From a virus, in IMG/VR virus record IMGVR_UViG_3300047355_000096, positions 1 through 31,278 of that record: a DNA stretch of 31,278 nucleotides; one strand, written 5' to 3'. How positions within the stretch are numbered: position 1 is the stretch's first letter; each line of letters starts with the position of its first letter. The notes under the pieces were generated by a model. It searched no databases, was not told the DNA's origin, and saw only the letters and a program-made list of their open reading frames with translations. Of the stretch, positions 1-23,378 are shown piece by piece. A program made the translations under genes and the position numbers.

Positions 1-907
1 CGGCGTTTAGTTCGTATTCTATGTTAGGTTTAGCCCATTCAATCCATACACCAGAACCTATTTTATTTTGTGTTCCGTTATCACTTTCAAACTTTACATA
101 GTAATCATCAAAGTCGTTTGTTTGATCACCTTGTACGTGTGCTATATAACCATCAGGAGCATTTGAAGGTAGGTCATCAAATCTTTGTACTGTACCTATA
201 GTCGGACTTAAACCTGTGTCACCTAAACTATCATATGTAGCTAGGTCGAATGGTGCATTACCTGCCTTGGTTATAACAACTGTTGAACCATCAGCCTGTG
301 CTGAAAAGTTAGAAACACCATTAATTGCTGAAGCTAATGCCGTGGCAATTTCATCTGTCCGAGTTTCTACTTGGTCAGTCTCAGATGTTACGTGGTTAGC
401 GGCAATACTACCATCAAGATATACTGTAAATCTTTGGTTATAATCACCCTGTTTAACAGCTATTAATCCTGTAAATGGATATGTAGGGGTTAGCTGTGTA
501 CTCATTGCTGTTGTCTGTTTTGAGTTAACAATGAATGTATAATCAGCAACTGTAACAGCTCTAAAATCAGTAGCTGGTGTTGTACTGTTTAGGTAAGCAG
601 TACCATTAGGGTAAGTAACGGTTTTCTGATTACCAGCTAGGTCATAGATAGATATCTGATTACTAGCATTAATAAACATAAAATAACGTTCTGTTGTATC
701 TCTGTTTATTAAATGTGTGAATGACCCCGTTGTTGCGGAGTTACTCATTGTAGCCACGTATTCTAGCGGTGGTCGCTTTTGTAGACCCTCAACAAGAGAA
801 GGGAACGCATTAACCTGTTGTTCAGCTTGAGATGATAATCTTAGAGCTGGAGACTGTTGCGATACACCTTGTATCAAGTTGGGGATAGCAGAACTTATCA
901 TACCCAT
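1..907 (-). CDS. Tail tubular protein B (T7 gp12-like), 3' end outside window
   Basis: The frame is open from an ATG at 907 to the left edge, about 302 codons, so the C-terminal part is missing. The N terminus (MGMISSAIPNLIQGVSQQ, then VEGLQKRPPLEYV near residue 45) matches the start of T7 gp12, including the GISQQ-like and EGLQKRPPL signatures. In T7, gp12 forms the nozzle of the tail tube. The start codon overlaps the gp11 stop (TAATG), with AGGA just upstream, so translation is probably coupled. An in-frame ATG at 901 is an alternative start. Identification rests on family resemblance and gene order (capsid, gp11, gp12). Confidence 0.93.
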   Translation of the reverse strand, partial: MGMISSAIPNLIQGVSQQSPALRLSSQAEQQVNAFPSLVEGLQKRPPLEYVATMSNSATTGSFTHLINRDTTERYFMFINASNQISIYDLAGNQKTVTYPNGTAYLNSTTPATDFRAVTVADYTFIVNSKQTTAMSTQLTPTYPFTGLIAVKQGDYNQRFTVYLDGSIAANHVTSETDQVETRTDEIATALASAINGVSNFSAQADGSTVVITKAGNAPFDLATYDSLGDTGLSPTIGTVQRFDDLPSNAPDGYIAHVQGDQTNDFDDYYVKFESDNGTQNKIGSGVWIEWAKPNIEYELNA

Positions 908-1494
908 TAGATCATCCTACGATTATTTCCGCGATTCATTACACGGGATACTGAATAGCTATCCATCATGTTATAATCCGCTGTGTCTCCTTCAAAATCT
1001 TTTAGATCAATCAGGGCTTTTTGTTCATCTCTTGATACCATCTTACTAATGGTTTCTGAGTTAAGCATACGGTCTGAAAATATACGTGCGGCTCTTGTAG
1101 TGATGTACCGTTTAGCTACATCAGGCAGAGTTAAGAAGTCTCTATAGTATACGATTGTGGCTTCAACACTTGCTTGAAATTCTAAAGACCTAGCTGTTAA
1201 ATCAAATAGCTTTCCATCTCTCTCAACTGTATTGAAGTCTGGTGTGTCTATACGTGCAACATCTGCAGGTATAACAATTTGTTTAAATTCGTTACGACTA
1301 AGCACAACTTTATCTTCAGTATTAAAGTGCCAGCCTTGAGCTTGAACCTCACGGCTTACCTCAGTCAGCACTTGGTTAGCGATTGTCACATCTGTAACCT
1401 GATTGCCTGTAAGTGTGTTAACAGGAGCTTCGCCGATTGTTGTCAGCAAAACGTTGACCGCTTCTAGTTCGGTCATAGACGTTGGTTTTGTCAT
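907..1494 (-). CDS. Tail tubular protein A (T7 gp11-like)
   Basis: This encodes 195 residues; T7 gp11 has 196. The start MTKPTSMTELEAVN is preferred over an upstream in-frame start at 1542 because GAGGA lies 6 bases before this ATG and because the longer version would begin inside the terminator hairpin. The N-terminal segment (ELEAVNVLLTTIGEAPVNTL) is the recognisable gp11 signature. In T7 the protein forms a 12-fold ring that joins the portal to the nozzle. It follows the capsid gene after a strong terminator and its stop overlaps the gp12 start. Function is inferred from family and position. Confidence 0.93.
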   Translation of the reverse strand: MTKPTSMTELEAVNVLLTTIGEAPVNTLTGNQVTDVTIANQVLTEVSREVQAQGWHFNTEDKVVLSRNEFKQIVIPADVARIDTPDFNTVERDGKLFDLTARSLEFQASVEATIVYYRDFLTLPDVAKRYITTRAARIFSDRMLNSETISKMVSRDEQKALIDLKDFEGDTADYNMMDSYSVSRVMNRGNNRRMI

Positions 1495-1506
1495 GATGTC
1501 CTCATT

Positions 1507-1540
1507 AAAAAAAAGGGTTGACCCGATTAAAGGCCAACCC
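1507..1540 (-). terminator. Intrinsic terminator after the capsid gene (T-phi analogue)
   Basis: On the minus strand a 9-bp stem, GGGTTGGCC with GGTCAACCC (one G-U pair, 8-base loop), is followed by eight T. It lies between the capsid stop (1551) and the gp11 start (1494), exactly where T7 has its T-phi terminator between genes 10 and 11. The G-U pair would be a C-A mismatch on the plus strand, which supports action on leftward transcripts. It probably lowers expression of tail genes relative to capsid. Confidence 0.9.
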
Positions 1541-1550
1541 AAAAATTAGA

Positions 1551-2510
1551 TTAAGCAGATTTGATTTCTACAGAACACTCTGGGCGCAAGATGCCATGCC
1601 CCATTGCGTACTTCGCCGCCATTAATGTACCTTGATACATAACTTCGAAGTCACCTGATGTTCTTTCAACTGCTAAGTCCATTAACTTAACAGTACCCAA
1701 AGCTTGCTTCTGCATTACTACAGCTACAGTGTTTTGGAAGTCACCGTGGTATGTGTTGTTCTCACCAGCTACTGCTGATACGTTTGTTGTTGGTACGTTG
1801 TTAGATTTAACAATATCAATACCAGCAACTTTAAGAACTGTACCGTCTGCATAAACACCAGCACCACCGAAGTCACGGTTGATTACGTCTGTTGTTTGTA
1901 CAAGGTTGTAGTATTGTGAAGGTTTCACGATAGCTACACGCTCATTCTCAGGAACGTCTTTCTCGTCCATGATTTTAGCCGCTTCAAAGATTGATGCCGC
2001 TAATGATGCGCCGTTAGTTGCCGCGTCTGCGTCTGTGATAGCTGAACCGCCGTTACCACCTGTTACAGTAGCACCAGAACGAGCCGCTAATACAGCTAAT
2101 TGTAAACAGCGAACATCGAATTGTTTAGCTAGAGCCATACCTAATAGACGTGAGTATTCTGCACGTACATCATAGTGGTTCTTAGCTTCATCGATATTTG
2201 CGATAAATGTGTCAGCAATTAATACGTCATCGATGTTGATAACGATTTCATTGTGAGCGATTTGTTGTGTACCCAATAGTGGTGTACCTACAGTGTGGTA
2301 TGCGGCATTCGCTTTACCTGTCACTGGGAATGATGCTGATTTACCAGACGCGATTGTACGCGATACGTGTAAATCTTTCATTACGTTTGTTTCGTCAAAA
2401 GCAGTTAAAACTTCACCAGCAAATACTTTAAGAAATAAAGCATTCGACTGCGTTGCATTAGCCGCCGCTAGGTTTGCCGCGCCGAGGCGTGACGGAGTTA
2501 CGTTTGTCAT
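1551..2510 (-). CDS. Major capsid protein (T7 gp10-like)
   Basis: This encodes 319 residues; T7 gp10A has 345. The N terminus (AATQSNALFLKVFAGEVLTAF by similarity), the central ARSGATVTGG segment, the VPENERVAIVKPSQYYNLV region and the C-terminal VMYQGTLMAAKYAMGHGILRPE resemble T7-type HK97-fold capsid proteins. The ATG at 2510 has AGGA 9 bases upstream. Context is typical: scaffold upstream, terminator and gp11 downstream. I see no sign of a 10A/10B-type frameshifted extension. Confidence 0.96.
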   Translation of the reverse strand: MTNVTPSRLGAANLAAANATQSNALFLKVFAGEVLTAFDETNVMKDLHVSRTIASGKSASFPVTGKANAAYHTVGTPLLGTQQIAHNEIVINIDDVLIADTFIANIDEAKNHYDVRAEYSRLLGMALAKQFDVRCLQLAVLAARSGATVTGGNGGSAITDADAATNGASLAASIFEAAKIMDEKDVPENERVAIVKPSQYYNLVQTTDVINRDFGGAGVYADGTVLKVAGIDIVKSNNVPTTNVSAVAGENNTYHGDFQNTVAVVMQKQALGTVKLMDLAVERTSGDFEVMYQGTLMAAKYAMGHGILRPECSVEIKSA

Positions 2511-2642
2511 TGTCTTTTCCTATTGAAAATAATTTATAGATTTAAGAATGACTTTCGGTCTCTTACTAGGCAGGGTTGTCATACGCATATGGCCTTGTCG
2601 TTCATTGTCGATAGTCTCAACCACCCAAATTAGGTGTGTTAG

Positions 2643-2684
2643 TTATTTCTTAGTACCTTTTCCGTAAGGTTTTTTCTTAGACAT
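2643..2684 (-). CDS. 13-residue lysine-rich peptide ORF
   Basis: A complete 14-codon reading frame encodes MSKKKPYGKGTKK. A near-perfect Shine-Dalgarno (AGGAGTAACT then ATG) precedes it, stronger than most in the window. It lies alone between scaffold (starting at 3427, ending at 2735) and capsid (starting at 2510). Six of 13 residues are lysine. It has no domain; a nucleic-acid-binding or capsid-interior peptide, or a leader peptide tuning capsid translation, would fit. The short length makes the coding call uncertain, but the ribosome-binding site is hard to explain otherwise. Confidence 0.5.
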   Translation of the reverse strand: MSKKKPYGKGTKK

Positions 2685-2734
2685 AGTTACTCCTATAATA
2701 GTATTGATGGGGATTTCTCCCCACCATAATAGTT

Positions 2735-3427
2735 TTAAAATACTGAAGACCGTCCTAGTTTTTCTTCAACGTCTTTAGTGTACGCTGAGTCTTTACCGTA
2801 TCGAGGGTCTTTCATAGCCGCTACAACTTGTGCTGTGCTACGGAATTCATCTTTAGATGCCGCTGATGCTCTACCTTGTAGTAAGCTAGGCTCAGAACCT
2901 TCTGCCGCTTCACGTTTAGATGCAAGCCATTCGACTGCCATCTTTGCATTCTCAGTCCCACCATCGACCATGTTGTTATACAACTCTAGTTCTTTAGTAT
3001 CGAGAGATTGCTTTGCCCAATCAGTTAATTCTGCGTAACCTTCTTCACCACCAGCTACATCCATAACTGCGGCAACATCGGCTGTTGCTCCTGATTGCAT
3101 ACCTTTAATGTATGTCTCCACCATTTCCCGTGGATATCCCATACCTTCAAGTTCTGTGAAGCTATCATTAGATAACTCACCACCAGCGGCGTATTCATCT
3201 GCAAACTTTGTAAAGCTGACAGGTTCACCTTTAGGTGTCTCAATGTCTGCTTCTGGAGTATCATTTGGTGATGACATCTTCTTCTCAAGTTCGCCGTATG
3301 ATTTAGCCATATCTTCTGGTGAGCTAAACTTTTCGGGCAACCACTCAGGTCGTTCAGAAAGATTATCTTCTGCAACTGGTGCTTCAGAACCTGTCTCTTC
3401 TTCTGTTATTGTGATGCTTTCTGCCAT
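2735..3427 (-). CDS. Capsid assembly scaffold (T7 gp9-like)
   Basis: This encodes 230 residues (T7 gp9 about 307), strongly acidic at the N terminus (EEETGSEAPVAEDNLSERPEWLPEKF). The segment PEWLPEKFSSPEDMAKSYGELEKKM is the usual N-terminal hallmark of podoviral scaffolds, and the C terminus is helical and charged, as expected for capsid contact. The protein would guide capsid assembly and then leave the prohead. It sits between portal and major capsid genes, as in T7. GGGAAG lies upstream of the ATG, 2 bases after the stop of a small lysine-rich ORF. Confidence 0.93.
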   Translation of the reverse strand: MAESITITEEETGSEAPVAEDNLSERPEWLPEKFSSPEDMAKSYGELEKKMSSPNDTPEADIETPKGEPVSFTKFADEYAAGGELSNDSFTELEGMGYPREMVETYIKGMQSGATADVAAVMDVAGGEEGYAELTDWAKQSLDTKELELYNNMVDGGTENAKMAVEWLASKREAAEGSEPSLLQGRASAASKDEFRSTAQVVAAMKDPRYGKDSAYTKDVEEKLGRSSVF

Positions 3428-3429
3428 TC

Positions 3430-3558
3430 TTAGAAGTCTTCCCTTTTAATTGGGTGTGGATTTCCTTTGATAATGGAAGGTGTTGCCAGTGGTTTCTTTA
3501 CAGGCTCTTCTGAAGGTTTCTTATCCTTCGCCGCCTTGCTGTCTTTGGCTTTCAACAT
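3430..3558 (-). CDS. Small basic ORF overlapping the portal 3' end (42 aa)
   Basis: A 43-codon frame begins MLKAKDSKAAKDKKPSEE and ends HPIKREDF. It overlaps the last 38 bases of the portal gene in another frame and stops 2 bases before the scaffold ATG, filling an otherwise empty gap. AGGA lies 8 bases upstream of its ATG. It is rich in lysine, proline and serine and has no recognisable domain. It could be a small virion protein or only a translational bridge between portal and scaffold. Part of the low-complexity look may come from an A-rich context, so I hold it as plausible, not certain. Confidence 0.45.
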   Translation of the reverse strand: MLKAKDSKAAKDKKPSEEPVKKPLATPSIIKGNPHPIKREDF

Positions 3559-5071
3559 ATGAATTTCCTAATGCTTTAACTCCCTCTTGAATTGCGTTTG
3601 GCGAAGCTTGCATTGCCATTTGTTGCATCTGCGCTTGCTGTTGCTCTTGGGAGATTTGTTCTTGTGTTTTAATAAGACCGTCTGTCTCGATGCCTAATGC
3701 TGTTGCACGGCGTTTGATATAGTCCTGTAAGTTTACATATTGCTGTAATACTTCAGACCCTAATGCTTGAGACATTCCTTGTATAAACAAATCTAATTTG
3801 CGTAGGTCATGCCCACGTCCTAGTGCTTCCATACCAGTTACGATTGAAGGTTTTACAACCTCTTCTGGTAACTTAGGTAGCTTCTTAGATTTAGTTAGTA
3901 CGTCGATCTTACGGTTAATGTAAGGTAACTGAAATTCTTGAGATAAGATTGAGTAAATACCTGATAGGGTATCTTCTAGTTCACCTGCAAGATATCGTAT
4001 TTCTTCCGCTGTTACACGTTCAGCGTTTCGAGATACAGATGATTGTAACATGAACTGTTGTGATAGGCGTTCTTCAATACCCTGCATAGCTTGGTAAGCC
4101 ACGCGGAAGTCGTTGAACTTATCCATCTGTAAAACAGACACATCGTTCTTATTACCTTCAATGATTGCTGTATTCTCTGCTTGAGCTATTGTTCTCATTC
4201 TGGTTGTACCGTTAGGATTAACCATGAATAATACTTTAGCCGCCGCCGCCGCGCCCTCAACGATTGCTTGTGATAAAGCTTCAAGAGACCGTAAGTCACC
4301 TAGAAGTTCTTCAACAAACCCTCGACCATAATCCTCACCGTCAATACGGGAGAACCTTAATGGTAGGAATGGTACGCTATCTTTCTTATATTTACCTTTA
4401 GAGCCAGTAACTAATGTACCCTTGCACTCTTGGTAAACAGTATAGAAATCATTCTTACGCTCTATATGAGTGTAGATTTCTACAGTCTTTTCGTCACCTT
4501 CAAGTTTTCCTGTTATGTTAGCCGCTGTCGCTTTGTCCAGAGCGTTAGGTGAAACGTGTTCAACCGTTACTATCTCTAACACTTCGCCGTTAGGGGCGCG
4601 TGATACAACATAACTATCTAAATGGATTACTCTTGTTTTATTTTGACCGACTTGTAACAAAACGTTACCGCCGACAATTAAGTGTTTTAACGCTTCATGT
4701 ACCGCTACTCGATCACCAGACGTTTCAATCTCAGACATTACTGCCCGTTCATACTCACCTAATTGTTGTTCCATTGCAGTTCTAGCCGCATCGTCTTGAG
4801 CCATATCTTTTAAAGTATACGGTTCAACCATGAGGCGAAAGAATGGTGAGTTAGGTGGCATTAGGGCTAGTGAAAGTTTAGAAGCTAAATTATTAACACC
4901 TCTCGCACCGATGCCTTGAAACGGTGTGTATAAATCACTTGTCTCGTTATGGCTATCTTGTGGTATTAAAGATGGAATAGTTAGTTCTGAACAATCTCTA
5001 GCTCTATCTAAATACGATTGTCGTCCTTGTTCGAGCTGACGATACCGCGCTTCTGCAGTACCTTGACTCAT
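3521..5071 (-). CDS. Portal / head-tail connector (T7 gp8-like)
   Basis: This encodes 516 residues; T7 gp8 has 536. The N-terminal segment (YLDRARDCSELTIPSLIPQDS, GARGVNNLASKLSLALMPP) closely parallels the T7 portal (IPSLFPKDS, GARGLNNLASKLMLALFP). The C terminus is glutamine-rich (QISQEQQQAQMQQMAMQ), as is common in this family. The protein forms the dodecameric ring at the packaging vertex. It follows a small proline-rich gene with a 12-base gap and precedes the scaffold. The start at 5071 has GAGAA upstream. Confidence 0.96.
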   Translation of the reverse strand: MSQGTAEARYRQLEQGRQSYLDRARDCSELTIPSLIPQDSHNETSDLYTPFQGIGARGVNNLASKLSLALMPPNSPFFRLMVEPYTLKDMAQDDAARTAMEQQLGEYERAVMSEIETSGDRVAVHEALKHLIVGGNVLLQVGQNKTRVIHLDSYVVSRAPNGEVLEIVTVEHVSPNALDKATAANITGKLEGDEKTVEIYTHIERKNDFYTVYQECKGTLVTGSKGKYKKDSVPFLPLRFSRIDGEDYGRGFVEELLGDLRSLEALSQAIVEGAAAAAKVLFMVNPNGTTRMRTIAQAENTAIIEGNKNDVSVLQMDKFNDFRVAYQAMQGIEERLSQQFMLQSSVSRNAERVTAEEIRYLAGELEDTLSGIYSILSQEFQLPYINRKIDVLTKSKKLPKLPEEVVKPSIVTGMEALGRGHDLRKLDLFIQGMSQALGSEVLQQYVNLQDYIKRRATALGIETDGLIKTQEQISQEQQQAQMQQMAMQASPNAIQEGVKALGNSYVESQRQQGGEG

Positions 5072-5082
5072 AATTTACGTTC

Positions 5083-5310
5083 TCACTTTGTTATTTGTAG
5101 TCCAGTATTTTTACCCATGTTTGTAACAGTTGGGTCTAGGTCTACACGTAACTGAGATGTTCCAGCGGCCTTATCAGCTACTGCACCTTTCTCTTGAGTG
5201 TTACCACTCTCAGGTGTAGATGGGTCGTACATATTAGTTTGTACAGGGTTAACCGCTGGTGGCGCGGCTGGTGGGGGTGTAGGTTCGGCTTTACTGCCTC
5301 CAAAGCACAT
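5083..5310 (-). CDS. Small proline-rich protein before portal, function unknown
   Basis: This encodes 75 residues starting MCFGGSKAEPTPPPAAPP, with a proline/alanine-rich first half and an unstructured, polar remainder. A strong Shine-Dalgarno (AGGAGAATAGACT, ATG) overlaps the end of the preceding 58-residue gene. In T7 the equivalent place, just before the portal gene, holds gp7 and gp7.3 (a tail assembly protein). A short MCFGG-type protein at this place is common in marine podoviruses. A structural or assembly role is inferred from position only. Confidence 0.8.
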   Translation of the reverse strand: MCFGGSKAEPTPPPAAPPAVNPVQTNMYDPSTPESGNTQEKGAVADKAAGTSQLRVDLDPTVTNMGKNTGLQITK

Positions 5311-5313
5311 AGT

Positions 5314-5490
5314 CTATTCTCCTAAATTTGAAGCTAATTGTTCTTCATGAATTGTTGTTAAAAAGTCTACGACTGAACGCTGTCCACCACGCCATTTTAA
5401 TTCATCCAATGTCTCACCAGCTTTGGGAGATACATTAGGAAAACGTGTGTTAAGTTCTGCTAGTAGTTCTTTAGAAATATAAGGAAACAT
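5314..5490 (-). CDS. Small unknown protein, first gene of the virion operon (58 aa)
   Basis: A 59-codon frame begins MFPYISKELLAELNTRFP and ends EQLASNLGE. AGAGGA lies upstream of the ATG, and that same sequence is the first transcribed part of the phage promoter at 5506-5525, so the leader is only about 16 bases. The protein is soluble and mixed helical, with a central LKWRGGQRSVVDFL segment. I do not recognise a named family. Its stop is 4 bases before the next gene's start. Position suggests co-expression with head genes. Confidence 0.8.
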   Translation of the reverse strand: MFPYISKELLAELNTRFPNVSPKAGETLDELKWRGGQRSVVDFLTTIHEEQLASNLGE

Positions 5491-5503
5491 TGTTTGTTTA
5501 ATC

Positions 5504-5525
5504 CTCTAAAGTGCAACCTAATTAA
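5504..5525 (-). promoter_or_regulatory. Phage RNA polymerase promoter before the virion genes
   Basis: On the minus strand the sequence is TAATTAGGTTGCACTTTAG, a copy of the five-member consensus ATTARGTTGCACTNTAG that resembles the T7 promoter (TAATACGACTCACTATAG). By analogy +1 is the G opposite 5506. It has TTTAG in place of TATAG, so it may differ in strength. It overlaps the last codons of phoH and drives the 58-residue gene, the proline-rich gene, portal, scaffold and capsid up to the terminator at 1507-1540. Confidence 0.82.
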
Positions 5526-6201
5526 AGGCGCGTGTCCATGCGGCACATATACCTGACCTCACAACATCGTCGTGAGTGAAGTTACAATGGGCGGCTGGAA
5601 TGTTATGTTTATGCAATAAATCTATAGCAATCTTTAGACCTGAGTTACCACTAAGGTCATGCTGAGATATATCACCGTTAATTATTACCTTGGTGTTTTC
5701 TCCTATTCTGGTGAGAAACATCTTCATTTCGTGAGGTGTAAGGTTCTGTCCTTCATCTAATATTACAAACGCATCATTAAATGAACGGCCTCTCATAACC
5801 TCGAAAGGAACTATTTCGATATCATTACGCTTACGAGCTATCTCATATTTACCTTTACCTAGTCTTTCAGTTAGAACTTCAGTAATCGGATAGACCCAAG
5901 GTGCAATCTTCTCTTCAATAGTACCTGCAAAGAAACCTAAAGATTTACCTGCAGGGATGTTAGGGCGAGTTAATATAATCTTTTTAACTCTATGTTTATT
6001 ATACATATCAGCGGCAATAGCCGCCGCTATATAAGTCTTACCAGTACCTGCAACACCAGTAACAAATACCTGAGAGTATCGGTGGATACACTCCATATAG
6101 TTCTCTTGTGCAGGGTTCTTTGGGAGTAGAGGTTGGACGCGAGGATTAACCACGCGCCCTTGCTCTTCTACCTTACGTTTGTAGGCAGATTTTTTAGCCA
6201 T
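5518..6201 (-). CDS. phoH: PhoH-like P-loop ATPase
   Basis: This encodes 227 residues. Walker A is GVAGTGKT (residues 49-56) and Walker B is FVILDE (145-150), followed by GQNLTPHEMKMFLTRIG and INGDISQHDL, the diagnostic PhoH core. PhoH-like proteins are common in marine phages; proposed roles involve RNA metabolism or stress and phosphate responses, but the phage function is not settled. It follows the ribonucleotide reductase gene by 9 bases, with AAGGA before its ATG, and its 3' end carries the promoter of the virion operon. Confidence 0.93.
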   Translation of the reverse strand: MAKKSAYKRKVEEQGRVVNPRVQPLLPKNPAQENYMECIHRYSQVFVTGVAGTGKTYIAAAIAADMYNKHRVKKIILTRPNIPAGKSLGFFAGTIEEKIAPWVYPITEVLTERLGKGKYEIARKRNDIEIVPFEVMRGRSFNDAFVILDEGQNLTPHEMKMFLTRIGENTKVIINGDISQHDLSGNSGLKIAIDLLHKHNIPAAHCNFTHDDVVRSGICAAWTRAFN

Positions 6202-6210
6202 ATTTATTCC

Positions 6211-8196
6211 TTATCGGATTGGGCAAGCACCTGTTGCACATTCATCATCAGTTAATTCATCAAATGAGTTTGCGTTCTCAATATCTACGGGTGCTAGTTT
6301 TGATACATATTCATCGTATACTTCTTTAGATACGACATCTTGAGGTAGGTAGGCATAGCCTAAGTCTTCAGCAGTTTTAGTTGGGTCGTTCCTGTAGATG
6401 AATGATACACCTACATAGCTGTCCCAGTTATTCATAATCCAATCAATCATACTTGGGATTTCATCAGGAGAATAACTAATGGTTACTGAACAATTATGGT
6501 CTACATAATTATCCATCATTAGTTTGTATCTATCTAATTGCTGTACTGCAGTTTCGAGATTTACAAACTTACCATCAACTTCATCAAACCTAACATCGTC
6601 ATATGATACAGGGAATGTAATCAATACGCTGTCAGGTTCGAATGGTTTCTCAATTACCTTGTATCCAGCATTAGTCATGATGGGTACGATAGGGTCATGC
6701 TTAGAGAAAGTAACATTGTTAAACAGATACTTACCTAATGGTCGATGCACTCCTTCCGTAGTCGACATGATTTTTGACAACGTTCCCGAAGGTTTTATGG
6801 TTGATACAAGTTTAGCTCTAGGTAGTCCTAGTTCATCCGCAATACTGTTAGCTCCTAGTCTTGCTTGAGCCTGTAGTGTCTTGAGCATACTCTCGACATT
6901 CATGTACATATATTCTTGATGGTCTAACCATTTAACAATACCTGTAGCACCGACACCACATAGACGTAAGAATTCATTTAGCTCATGCCATGAACGCTGT
7001 AAGATACCGTCATCTAAATTCACACAAGTCTGCCGATAGTTTGCTCTAGCTGACATATAAACAGCACGTTTCAAACCTTCGAAGTCATCAAGGAATTTAC
7101 CCCAATCAATCTCAACTAGGTTACAGAAACTCTTATTACCTAAGAGTATCTCCGCGCATGGGTTAACTCCTTTAAAATGTGGAGCGCGTTTGAGTGCGGC
7201 TTCAGCATTAATGAATGCAGGTTCTGAACCACCAGCATCAACCATACGGTCAAAGATATATGCTATCTCCCACTTGGTAGGCTTCTTAAAGAATAACAAT
7301 GAGTTGTTAGATTGTTGTCTGTGTGCATTGTCATGTAACCAGAAATCTTTCTTAGCTGATATAAACTCATCAACTTCGATATCATCTACAGGCATCACTG
7401 CGATTTCTGCAGAACGTCTTGAAGACAATGTAGTTCCCATATGGTTAAGCAAGTCTAAGATATCCATACGTGTTAGTAATTGACCAGCACGTTTGTTCAT
7501 CATGTTACATATCTTTTCTAGTGCTATGTGTAATGTATCATCGCCAGAACTAATCCAGCCATAACCTTTTAGCCTAGTACCTGCAGGTCTGATTTCAGTG
7601 TAATCTAATATCAACCTATCGATAGGGTCTTTCAGTGCCATGATTTTACCTAGAGCTTTAGCCCAAGCCCTCGCACTATCACCGATAGTTATCTTATAGA
7701 TACGATAGCCTTCTTCAGTAACCCGTAGTTCTGTTTTGTTATCTTCAGCACCACGGTCTGTCCTTGTCGAACGAAACGTTTCTACCTCGATGTGCTTTGC
7801 AAAGCCATTAAGTGTACCAACGATAGGTTCAAAGCCAACACCACAGCCTTGTAGTAGTAACCAGAATGCATCCACTACATCGTGGACTGTTTCTATTCTA
7901 CCAAAGCTACAGTTAAATTGAGATGCTTCATGCTTCTTAGCTACATCAGTTCCACCGAGCCATAAGGTACGGCCTGATGTTGTAGCTTTCCTAGACATCA
8001 TTAGTTCTCTGAATTCATTAAGCTCACCAGTTTCACCTTGGTTAAGCTTCTCACCTTTACTGCGTTCCCATAACCATTCTTGGTGGTTGATTACACGGTC
8101 AACTGTTTGCTCCCATGTTTCAAACACTGTGCCTTCATCGTTGAGGGGTCTATTATATGTACGTCTTGTTACAACGTCAGCTCTTATATCTTTCAT
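6211..8196 (-). CDS. nrdJ: Class II (B12-dependent) ribonucleotide reductase
   Basis: This encodes 661 residues, the size of a monomeric adenosylcobalamin-dependent enzyme of the Lactobacillus leichmannii type. The radical cysteine lies in NPCAE (C347, with E349), the active-site redox pair is C96 (FNCSF) and C358 (SFCNL), and the C-terminal shuttle pair is C653/C658 (ECATGACPIR); these spacings equal those of the Lactobacillus enzyme (C408/E410/C119/C419, C731/C736). GCGVGF near 118 and IKPSGTLSKI are also typical. It reduces ribonucleotides to deoxynucleotides without oxygen or iron but needs host B12. The start overlaps the mazG stop by 4 bases; glutaredoxin two genes upstream may act as reductant. 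Confidence 0.94.
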   Translation of the reverse strand: MKDIRADVVTRRTYNRPLNDEGTVFETWEQTVDRVINHQEWLWERSKGEKLNQGETGELNEFRELMMSRKATTSGRTLWLGGTDVAKKHEASQFNCSFGRIETVHDVVDAFWLLLQGCGVGFEPIVGTLNGFAKHIEVETFRSTRTDRGAEDNKTELRVTEEGYRIYKITIGDSARAWAKALGKIMALKDPIDRLILDYTEIRPAGTRLKGYGWISSGDDTLHIALEKICNMMNKRAGQLLTRMDILDLLNHMGTTLSSRRSAEIAVMPVDDIEVDEFISAKKDFWLHDNAHRQQSNNSLLFFKKPTKWEIAYIFDRMVDAGGSEPAFINAEAALKRAPHFKGVNPCAEILLGNKSFCNLVEIDWGKFLDDFEGLKRAVYMSARANYRQTCVNLDDGILQRSWHELNEFLRLCGVGATGIVKWLDHQEYMYMNVESMLKTLQAQARLGANSIADELGLPRAKLVSTIKPSGTLSKIMSTTEGVHRPLGKYLFNNVTFSKHDPIVPIMTNAGYKVIEKPFEPDSVLITFPVSYDDVRFDEVDGKFVNLETAVQQLDRYKLMMDNYVDHNCSVTISYSPDEIPSMIDWIMNNWDSYVGVSFIYRNDPTKTAEDLGYAYLPQDVVSKEVYDEYVSKLAPVDIENANSFDELTDDECATGACPIR

Positions 8197-8519
8197 CTGT
8201 TATCACCATTTCCTTTTAGCACCCCTCGCTCTTGGCGGTCTGCTAACTTGCTCAAATTTTTTTCGGCTAATACTTGTAGGGTTGTATTGTGTACCCGTGC
8301 CAATTCACTGACAAACCAGAGTACATCTCCTAGTTCGTCTAAGACTTCAGCCCTTGGGTACACGCCATCCTTGCGGTAATACTTAGCGACCTTACCGTTC
8401 AGCTCACCAACCTCAGATGATAAGCCAAGTGTTAAATATTCTAGTGCGTGTTTAGTTGGATACACGGCTGTCTTCTCAGCACCATCTTGGTACTGATTAA
8501 GCGTTAATTCTTTTGTCAT
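8193..8519 (-). CDS. mazG: MazG-like nucleotide pyrophosphohydrolase
   Basis: This encodes 108 residues with a single MazG-type helical domain. The metal-binding motifs are ExxE at 36-39 (SEVGE) and ExxD at 62-65 (DELGDVLW). Phage MazG proteins hydrolyse (d)NTPs and have been proposed to alter (p)ppGpp or nucleotide pools; which substrate applies here is unknown. It overlaps the reductase by 4 bases and the glutaredoxin stop by 1 base, so it belongs to a tightly coupled nucleotide-metabolism block. Confidence 0.9.
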   Translation of the reverse strand: MTKELTLNQYQDGAEKTAVYPTKHALEYLTLGLSSEVGELNGKVAKYYRKDGVYPRAEVLDELGDVLWFVSELARVHNTTLQVLAEKNLSKLADRQERGVLKGNGDNR

Positions 8520-21162: not shown

Positions 21163-21300
21163 CTAAAATGGTGGCTCTTCTCCTTTGTATTCTGGCTTCC
21201 ACATTGGGATATGTTTTTGATCTGTCCTTACTACTTTTGTTTGGTCTTCCTGTTTTCCAAACATCTGTAGTAAGAACACTGACAAGACGTGACTAAACAT
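21163..21300 (-). CDS. Small unknown early protein (45 aa)
   Basis: A 46-codon frame begins MFSHVLSVFLLQMFGK and ends with a charged, proline-rich segment (IPMWKPEYKGEEPPF). Its ATG overlaps the stop of the preceding gene (TAATG), so translation is probably coupled; no separate Shine-Dalgarno is strong. The first 11 residues are hydrophobic but too few for a clear membrane helix. An internal ATG at residue 13 is an alternative start. No family is recognised. The 124 bases downstream, to 21039, hold nothing I can support. Confidence 0.55.
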   Translation of the reverse strand: MFSHVLSVFLLQMFGKQEDQTKVVRTDQKHIPMWKPEYKGEEPPF

Positions 21301-21521
21301 TAGCTAATAGTTTTCTCTAGCTCATGAGTTACAGCGTCATAATATCCCTGAGTAAAATAGCTGTCAGCAGGGTCAAAGCGAAAACTTTCGTAAGCTTCTT
21401 TCAATGAGAAATCTGGTTTACTAATTAACTCATAGACAGCTTCAACTCCTTGAGCATATTCTTTAAAGCTGTCAGTGCTGTCGATTGTAGTTGTTGATAA
21501 TAAAATTTCGCTATTCATCAT
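21300..21521 (-). CDS. Small acidic early protein (73 aa)
   Basis: The protein starts MMNSEILLSTTTIDSTD; an ATG directly downstream (21518) is equally possible. AAAGG lies 10 bases before the first ATG. It is acidic and helical (SFKEYAQGVEAVYELI, DAVTHELEKTI), with no known domain. The leader holds the first of two related two-hairpin RNA elements. Small acidic early proteins of T7-like phages often inhibit host enzymes, but nothing in this sequence shows a target. Confidence 0.78.
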   Translation of the reverse strand: MMNSEILLSTTTIDSTDSFKEYAQGVEAVYELISKPDFSLKEAYESFRFDPADSYFTQGYYDAVTHELEKTIS

Positions 21522-21541
21522 TTTAAATTTACCTTTCAATT

Positions 21542-21592
21542 CATGCTTGATTGCATGGGCAAACTCACTGATTGACAGTGAGCTAACCGAAA
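21542..21592 (-). ncRNA. Two-hairpin RNA element, copy A (leader of the 73-aa gene)
   Basis: Read on the minus strand, TTCGGTTAG is followed by hairpin 1 (CTCACTG, loop TCAAT, CAGTGAG), the linker TTTGCC, and hairpin 2 (CATGC, loop AATCAA, GCATG). Copy B at 21933-21981 has the same unpaired blocks while both stems have changed in a compensating way. It starts soon after the upstream stop codon and ends about 15 bases before the Shine-Dalgarno. An alternative helix, CTGATTG with CAATCAG, would disrupt hairpin 1 in this copy only. Confidence 0.7.
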
Positions 21593-21595
21593 CAA

Positions 21596-21910
21596 TCAGC
21601 TACCTAAAAAGACGTTGAGATTTCCTGTTGGTTTGTTTTCGTATCGCTGGACTTCAATTACTTCGATAAATCTATGCCATAGGTCATTAAGATAAAGATG
21701 CTTTGCCACAGCTTTCTTGAGTTCTTGTTTGTTAATTCTACCGTCTTTAATTGTTACAGCGGCGGCGTAAAAACATTCTGAATTAAACCAAACACCATAA
21801 ACACCATCAGCGGCGCGTTCGATATTCTTGTCGCTACCGTCAGCGAGGTTTGTGTCGATATCCCAAACAATACTATCTGTTGTGAATTCTTCAAAAGTAA
21901 CTTCTTGCAT
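21596..21910 (-). CDS. Early protein of unknown function (104 aa)
   Basis: The ATG at 21910 (MQEVTFEEFTTDSIVWDIDT) is chosen because AAAAAGGAAAAATT precedes it; a longer frame to 22018 would run through the structured leader and the ArdC gene end. The protein is acidic at the N terminus, with a central AADGVYGVWFNSECFYAAAV segment and a helical KKAVAKHLYLNDLWHRFIEVIEV part. I recognise no family with certainty. It directly follows the ArdC-like gene, so a counter-defence role is possible from position only. Confidence 0.78.
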   Translation of the reverse strand: MQEVTFEEFTTDSIVWDIDTNLADGSDKNIERAADGVYGVWFNSECFYAAAVTIKDGRINKQELKKAVAKHLYLNDLWHRFIEVIEVQRYENKPTGNLNVFLGS

Positions 21911-21932
21911 TTTAATTTTTCCTTTTTTAAAT

Positions 21933-21981
21933 CGCGCTGAATTGCACGGGCAAACCCACCGTCTCCGATGGGTTAACCGAT
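21933..21981 (-). ncRNA. Two-hairpin RNA element, copy B (leader of the 104-aa gene)
   Basis: On the minus strand, ATCGGTTA is followed by hairpin 1 (ACCCATCG, GNRA-type loop GAGA, CGGTGGGT), the linker TTTGCC, and hairpin 2 (CGTGC, loop AATTCA, GCGCG). Compared with copy A, the stem bases differ but pairing is kept (for example A-T to G-C in hairpin 2), while CGGTTA, GTTTGCCC and GCAAT are identical. It begins about 7 bases after the ArdC stop. Confidence 0.7.
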
Positions 21982-21987
21982 GCATTC

Positions 21988-22863
21988 CTAGGCGGCGGCC
22001 TCTGTTAAATATGTGCAAGCTTTTTGAGATAAAGCGGCGGCTTTGGTGATTGCTTTGGGGTCTGATTTAAGACACTTAATCCAGCTATTAAGATACTTTG
22101 CATGGTCAGCGCGTGGCTCGCTATCAACCTTGAGTGTATTGGATAACATCGCGCTACCTAACTCAGCGACCAGCTCTTCAAATGCATAATCTTTATCACC
22201 AAACTTGCCATATGATTTAAAGCGATCATGGCGTGAACTGTGGCCTGTCCAGTGGATTAACTCATGAAGTGCAGTTCCATAAAATCCAGATGCGTTTTTG
22301 AACTGGTGACGCTCTGGCAAAACAACAATATCTTGAGCTGGTGAATAGAATGCTTGATTTTGTGGTTTGTATTCAATCTTGGCTGGTAACTTAGCAATAA
22401 ATTGATCAGCGGTTTTGATATCATTCCAATCTTGAACGCCATCTAATTCGCTGTCAGTTTCTTCAAGCCACGAACCGTCCCAGCCAGTAACTTGATCAGC
22501 GTTAAAAACTACATAAGTTTTAGGGAATGGAATTGATTTTTCTTCACCAGTAACTTTATCTTTAATTTTTAAAGTTGTGTAGAATAGAACATGAGTTCCT
22601 TTAGAACCTTTATTTACTGTAGCACCTAAAGATTTCCATTGTTTAAAAGTGGCAAATACTGGTGATTTATAGCCAGACATTGCTGTAATAAATCCAAGGT
22701 TTAAAAAGTTGATGCCAGTATATTCACGTTTCTTGGCACTGATAGGATTACCAACAGCCCTAGCACTATCACGCCAAGGTTTAGACCAATCTGTACCGTG
22801 TTGTTCCATTAATGAAATTACTTTGTTTGTGATTTCTTGCATTGTGTCGATTGCTTTTGTCAT
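21988..22863 (-). CDS. ardC: ArdC-like antirestriction protein
   Basis: This encodes 291 residues. The N-terminal ssDNA-binding domain (about 5-130) shows GINFLNL, FATFKQWKSLGATV, KGSKGTHVLFY and FNADQVTGW, the usual ArdC_N landmarks. The C-terminal zincin-like domain has HELIH at 200-204 (ALHELIHWTGHSSR) and a downstream EELVAELG (229-236) that can give the third zinc ligand. ArdC proteins of plasmids protect incoming DNA from restriction. Being among the first genes to be transcribed fits a role like that of T7 Ocr. The ATG has AGGGAAATAAT upstream. Confidence 0.92.
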   Translation of the reverse strand: MTKAIDTMQEITNKVISLMEQHGTDWSKPWRDSARAVGNPISAKKREYTGINFLNLGFITAMSGYKSPVFATFKQWKSLGATVNKGSKGTHVLFYTTLKIKDKVTGEEKSIPFPKTYVVFNADQVTGWDGSWLEETDSELDGVQDWNDIKTADQFIAKLPAKIEYKPQNQAFYSPAQDIVVLPERHQFKNASGFYGTALHELIHWTGHSSRHDRFKSYGKFGDKDYAFEELVAELGSAMLSNTLKVDSEPRADHAKYLNSWIKCLKSDPKAITKAAALSQKACTYLTEAAA

Positions 22864-23062: not shown

Positions 23063-23102
23063 TTTAAGATTTCCTTTGTTTGGTTAGTTGGTTAATTCTA
23101 CA

Positions 23103-23127
23103 ATCAGCACCAGTTGTTGATGCTGAT
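23103..23127 (-). ncRNA. 10-bp hairpin in an early leader
   Basis: On the minus strand ATCAGCATCA pairs with TGGTGCTGAT around the loop ACAAC; the one T-G wobble would be a mismatch on the other strand. It begins 12 bases after the stop of the 79-residue gene and no T-run follows. Its place resembles that of the two related RNA elements at 21542 and 21933, although sequence is not shared. It could be a processing site such as those cut by RNase III in T7 early mRNA. Confidence 0.5.
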
Positions 23128-23138
23128 GTTAAAACTAA

Positions 23139-23378
23139 CTACAGATTGAATATTAAGTTATGTAGATCAGCATTTTTATTATTATCAATTTCAAAAGCTT
23201 CATTTCTGTAGCTGTGGATTTTCTTATGTTTGAAAACGATAACTTCAATAACTGTTAGGCCTTTTCCAAAACCATTAAGATAATTAAAGTAACGCTGTTT
23301 TAATGTTTTCAAGCTTGTACATTTATTTAAGCTTGTTGATTTTTTGCCAGTGTTGAATGTGACTTGGTAAGTATACAT
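23139..23378 (-). CDS. First early protein, unknown function (79 aa)
   Basis: This encodes 79 residues, basic, beginning MYTYQVTFNTGKKSTSLNKC. A beta-rich start, a lysine-rich middle (TLKQRYFNYLNGFGKG) and VIEVIVFKHKKIHSY are visible; no family is recognised. AAGGA precedes the ATG. It is the first gene after the likely host promoter at 23416-23444, the place where T7 encodes its earliest anti-host proteins. Confidence 0.75.
   Translation of the reverse strand: MYTYQVTFNTGKKSTSLNKCTSLKTLKQRYFNYLNGFGKGLTVIEVIVFKHKKIHSYRNEAFEIDNNKNADLHNLIFNL

Follow-up and report, generated by a model that had tools for sequence, protein, structure and literature searches.

A previously uncatalogued viral RNA family with two competing folds at early gene junctions of a T7-like phage

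Two leaders that precede consecutive small early genes in a T7-like phage fragment belong to one RNA family, which is absent from Rfam and is represented by about 48 distinct copies in viral contigs. The conserved RNA fold is real and previously uncatalogued; the initial annotation, made from the sequence of the two leaders, was correct in its observation, which extends further than was described. Besides this marine phage, several unrelated phages carry the fold. A T7-type RNase III function is the best supported, and the element may well be an intergenic mRNA-processing signal that works like the early-region RNase III sites of T7 (rough probability, 0.5), with a ribosome-sensing switch as the main rival.

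The two leaders and their relatives

The window, i.e., the whole 31,278-nucleotide stretch of DNA that was analyzed, is a fragment of a T7-like (Autographiviridae-type) phage, and its RNA polymerase shares 64% identity with the one in Roseobacter phage CRP-125. Among the minus-strand early genes are those for ArdC, the RNA polymerase, an integrase, and a MarR-type regulator, along with two small genes of unknown function. The ArdC gene and a gene for a 104-aa protein flank copy B of the element, and copy A lies between this second gene and a gene for a 73-aa protein, such that, as initially annotated, there is one leader directly before each of the two small open reading frames (ORFs; 21910 to 21596 and 21521 to 21300). 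The features are as follows:

21988–22863, minus strand: ArdC-like antirestriction gene, upstream of copy B (Pfam ArdcN, 1.1e-28; MPTase-PolyVal, 2.8e-44)
21988–21990, minus strand: stop codon TAG of the ArdC gene, the last base of which is in the lower stem of copy B (ORF list, fold)
21933–21988, minus strand: copy B, directly 3' of the ArdC gene (covariance-model match, fold)
21955–21972, minus strand: upper stem of copy B, CCCATCG/CGGTGGG, with a GAGA loop (fold)
21933–21948, minus strand: hairpin 2 of copy B, CGTGC-AATTCA-GCGCG (covarying alternative fold)
21596–21910, minus strand: 104-aa gene between copies B and A, with no Pfam or PHROG match
21542–21598, minus strand: copy A, starting with the 104-aa gene stop codon and ending with hairpin 2 (covariance-model match, fold)
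21596–21598, minus strand: TGA stop codon of the 104-aa gene, within the copy A lower stem on its 5' strand (sequence, ORF list, family-wide stop position)
21591–21598, minus strand: 5' strand of the copy A lower stem, with its partner at 21548–21555 (fold, family-wide complementarity)
21564–21582, minus strand: upper stem of copy A (stem 1), CTCACTG/CAGTGAG, and its loop (fold; stem 1 covariation)
21542–21557, minus strand: hairpin 2 of copy A, CATGC-AATCAA-GCATG (covarying alternative fold)
21300–21521, minus strand: 73-aa gene downstream of copy A, with no Pfam or PHROG match
23091–23139, minus strand: third intergenic hairpin (10 bp on each side of a 2x2 internal loop), immediately 3' of the 79-aa ORF stop codon (fold, z = -6.1)

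The stems are as first given, including the GNRA-type loop (GAGA) of copy B, and both copies fold far better than their dinucleotide shuffles (z = -5.8 for copy A and -4.2 for copy B, with 0 of 200 shuffles as good). The third hairpin (23139 to 23091) is unrelated in sequence to copies A and B and is not matched by the covariance model, but it has the same layout at another early junction.

Relatives were gathered from pattern scans of viral contigs and from the loci of ArdC relatives, and a covariance model (R1) was built from nine equal-length copies of other phages, with none from the window. This model recovers both window copies, matching copy A at 21534 to 21605 (E = 2.4e-5) and copy B at 21925 to 21995 (E = 0.011), both in 648 kb; in the same 648 kb, from 75 sources, it gives 80 matches at E ≤ 0.06, these two included, and about 10 of its copies had not been retrieved by any pattern. 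Among isolates, Roseobacter phages CRP-114 and CRP-227 each have two copies in the early region, and CRP-361 has one copy detected by R1 and a diverged one recognized by eye, also in the early region. The R1 search finds no copy in veravirus CRP-4 and CRP-5, in coliphage HK022, or in the T7 early region, and there is no clear copy in the relatives CRP-125, CRP-171, and CRP-113, and the element is thus not essential. A strict pattern has four matches in ∼85,000 prokaryote genomes, and judged by sequence only one of these (L296, Primorskyibacter) looks real; the element is therefore essentially confined to viruses. The pattern GTTTGCCCRTGCAAT alone yields mostly chance matches in IMG/VR and was useful only since two contigs repeat the 390-nt spacing.

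Rfam 15 at gathering score matches none of the elements, either in the window or in the relatives, a search of the region at a permissive threshold returns chance matches only, and a nucleotide search of the region against phage isolates gives no match. The radC RNA motif is described near antirestriction and integrase genes, and the initial annotation had raised it as a possible identity. Its neighboring genes are similar to those here, but its Rfam model (RF01754, 149 positions) matches nowhere in the window at gathering score and nowhere at E ≤ 10 in nine related contigs, and membership is thereby rejected.

Further leaders that follow an ArdC stop codon, in contigs L156, L167, and L173, also have a long interrupted hairpin and an alternative second hairpin, although they are unrelated in sequence and not detected by R1; they are possibly distant relatives or the products of convergence. 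In five contigs (L208, L217, L222, L229, and L241), the element is followed by the MFIILATKPL gene, the homologue of which in CRP-4 (L301, 660 to 692) and CRP-5 (L307, 923 to 945) has a gap of only 15 to 25 nt and no element; matches in the protein search rest on the first 26 residues of the query only.

The position of the element between genes is well conserved. The stop codon of the upstream ORF (counted if at least 40 aa long) lies 3 to 12 nt before the core in 38 of 48 distinct copies, usually overlapping the pairing strand, and the next start codon is 14 to 22 nt after hairpin 2 in 29 of the 43 copies for which a start was scored. The element therefore occupies the space from the stop codon to the Shine-Dalgarno (SD) sequence. 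The genes that follow are not conserved, and the element is indeed reused before unrelated genes, as had been proposed: the 104-aa and 73-aa proteins do not align with each other, and downstream of the other family copies are dozens of unrelated small proteins whose families indicate no common function.

Covariation and two mutually exclusive folds

The initial annotation proposed a selected RNA structure with compensatory changes, and this is borne out by an 80-row alignment (60 distinct rows), the counts from which lean towards stem 1 and hairpin 2, to which it was fitted. Compensatory changes are present in 15 of 19 pairs with a covariation score of 0.472 (0.152 ± 0.009 in shuffles), paired cells make up 96.2% (73.5 ± 0.9 in shuffles), and there are 215 double-change cells (62 ± 5.6 in shuffles); the pairing counts collapse once the partners are shifted by one to three columns. 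Covariation is extensive both in the long hairpin described below and in hairpin 2. All seven modelled pairs of stem 1 covary, and the arms of hairpin 2 are partly fixed by the search patterns. An overlapping reading frame does not account for the conservation, as the copies differ by insertions and deletions that do not keep frame.

The shared blocks CGGTTA, GTTTGCCC, and GCAAT had been read as unpaired linkers, but they pair. CGG pairs with GCC (D-type copies have AG/CT in place of GG/CC), and GCAAT belongs to hairpin 2, contributing to its 5' arm and to its loop, the latter pairing upstream of CGG. The strand immediately 5' of CGG, which usually takes in the upstream stop codon, pairs with hairpin 2 along its 5' arm and loop, and the result is a single long hairpin interrupted by a 3x3 internal loop, with arms of 21 to 24 nt and an upper stem of 5 to 11 bp in the computed folds. 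Its 5' arms are 22.5 ± 1.0 nt long, a spread that reflects the upper stem only, the lower-stem length having been set from the family-wide limit of pairing.

Between the stop-codon strand and loop 2, 208 of 270 positions are paired, compared with 127.9 ± 7.3 in shuffled sets, and none of 10,000 shuffles reaches this number; the copies are not phylogenetically independent, but the pairing is present in one register only, and this register control keeps their relatedness. This pairing was neither searched for nor modelled, and it is thus independent evidence for the structure. It covers bases 1 to 5 of loop 2, with base 6 at chance, and runs on through the 5' arm of hairpin 2 as far as GG/CC, such that the 3' arm of hairpin 2 and the upstream strand are rival partners of the same bases. 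Computed energy favors the long hairpin in 80% of 45 copies, with a median difference of 1.9 kcal/mol, and the two folds are within 3 kcal/mol of each other in 73% of copies. Three copies have lost the 3' arm of hairpin 2, and thereby hairpin 2 itself, but keep the long-hairpin fold. The two-hairpin fold that was first described does exist, although it is one of two mutually exclusive folds and is usually the less stable by computed energy.

Comparison with the T7 early-region RNase III sites

Early-mRNA processing is best known from T7, whose sites R0.5, R1, R1.1, and R1.3 are, like the element, intergenic in an Autographiviridae early region; we take most of these site names and the cut positions as commonly given, the T7 record carrying no such annotation. 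T7 R0.5 and R1, when folded in the same way, have a lower stem whose start is within the upstream stop codon or a short distance past it, then a small internal loop, an upper stem of 9 to 10 bp, and a short loop, so that both there and here a stop codon and an interrupted hairpin are followed by an SD sequence and a start codon. The element thus has two features expected of a T7-type site, namely a hairpin that spans about two helical turns and is broken by an internal loop, and an early intergenic position between stop codon and SD sequence. The likeness is one of layout only, as the covariance model has no match in T7 positions 1 to 8000 and so gives no sign of homology to the T7 sites. In the element, but not in T7, the 3' strand of the lower stem also makes a conserved second hairpin, and we know of no T7 site with such a hairpin. 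Cutting has been demonstrated for the T7 sites, whereas here it is the layout that points to it.

RNase III cutting was one of several options in the initial annotation and has become the favored reading. Before any cut, the stop-codon bases of the transcript can pair with hairpin 2 along its 5' arm and loop to form the interrupted two-turn hairpin, and the host RNase III would cut this, probably mainly on the 3' side of the internal loop. T7 R1.1 RNA is cut once to give 47- and 13-nt products, and when this product distance is applied from the 3' end of the long hairpin, it falls on the 3' side of the internal loop. After the cut, stem 1 would stay on the upstream mRNA and protect its 3' end, and the released strand would fold as hairpin 2, forming the 5' hairpin of the downstream mRNA near its SD sequence. 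Both competing folds would be conserved because such a cut leaves stem 1 and then hairpin 2. Unrelated downstream genes are as expected of a processing site, and there is no intrinsic terminator (GC-rich hairpin and T run) on the minus strand at copy A or B. RNase III does not need as much sequence conservation as is seen in hairpin 2 and the core, although part of that sequence was fixed by the search patterns. A strand-exchange design of this kind, in which the stop-codon strand pairs with the hairpin loop of the next gene, was not found in the literature searched.

Alternative readings, gene exchange, and other junction RNAs

A ribosome-sensing switch is a tentative alternative to RNase III processing, in which a terminating ribosome covers the stop-codon strand, the loop strand is released, hairpin 2 forms, and downstream initiation changes. 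Most copies have the stop codon within the switching strand, the energies of the two folds are close, and coupling through structures or pseudoknots that involve the upstream gene is known (PMC6728339). However, the SD sequence is as accessible in one fold as in the other (0.67 and 0.64 unpaired), which does not support its masking by either fold and leaves no evident control of initiation; three copies do without hairpin 2, and the genes linked to the element are unrelated and often exchanged. It is possible, but doubtful to the same degree, that these RNAs are a bistable phage class that senses translation termination and has spread to many unrelated early genes; if so, the stop codon of each gene would be a switch strand, and the finishing ribosome would toggle the fold before the next gene. 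We consider it unlikely that the pairing of loop 2 with the upstream strand coexists with hairpin 2 and stem 1 in a protein- or ligand-binding pseudoknot that controls the downstream gene. The end of the pairing at loop base 5 fits such a structure, as does the position facing C50, which is paired in only about two-thirds of copies and is odd for a continuous helix. But a pseudoknot would not need pairing through the 5' arm of hairpin 2 to GG/CC, the downstream genes share no function, and the upstream pairing is kept in the copies that lack hairpin 2, which disfavors a pseudoknot as the sole structure.

The leaders are also places where genes have been exchanged. Close relatives keep leader B after ArdC with different genes behind it, and in contig L116 the order is copy A, a 102-aa gene, copy D, and the 73-aa gene, whereas in the window copy A is joined directly to the 73-aa gene. 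With its join in hairpin 2 sequence common to A and D, the window copy A is an A/D chimera, and the two phages differ by this one gene, either lost in the window or gained in L116. The repeated elements may thus serve as joints for the gain or loss of early genes, probably as a secondary effect, and one seen in a single comparison. That the leaders are mainly DNA-level homology blocks for gene exchange, with RNA folding secondary, would explain the chimera and the same leader before different genes, but we consider it very unlikely: the compensatory changes keep pairing while reducing homology between copies, and the orientation and the spacing to stop and start codons are fixed. SAS/ESAS repeats of cluster K mycobacteriophages are likewise repeated elements, which contain inverted repeats and lie directly upstream of the starts of many unrelated nonstructural genes (PMC3203893), although there a 13-bp start-associated sequence is conserved, whereas here it is the pairing of stem 1, and the stop codon takes part. 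We give the lowest probability of all to a processive antiterminator like HK022 put or a new self-cleaving ribozyme. The put RNAs are ∼70 nt long with two adjacent stem-loops and are found in early operons (PMC9378689), as the element has two such stem-loops in early transcripts, but they lie near early promoters rather than at successive gene junctions, and R1 has no match in the HK022 genome. Self-cleaving ribozymes do occur in the same slot, as described below, but the internal-loop bases of the element vary, and there are few invariant unpaired bases for a catalytic core.

Contig L165, from a phage with ArdC, has three type II hammerhead ribozymes (5628 to 5691, 7089 to 7156, and 8210 to 8274), each starting at the upstream ORF's stop codon and finishing short of the next SD sequence, and a published array from Agrobacterium has three hammerheads that surround ardA in the vicinity of marR and integrase genes (PMC3088659). 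These hammerheads, the diverged leaders of L156, L167, and L173, and the third hairpin of the window lend independent support to the processing reading. Like the element, these hammerheads are in the stop-to-SD slot of successive genes near antirestriction genes, but no hammerhead core or Rfam ribozyme match is present at the elements in the same search that detects those of L165. Hammerhead-like cores (CTGATGA...GAAA), which Rfam at gathering score does not report, are also seen before successive genes after ArdC in L170 (3637 and 3949) and L172 (1400 and 1712). The hammerheads in the same slot elsewhere suggest that cutting at gene junctions may have been reached by different RNAs. The isolates CRP-114, CRP-227, and CRP-361 make the question testable in a marine phage-host system, and the elements suggest how small accessory genes may be swapped without disturbing the expression of their neighbors.
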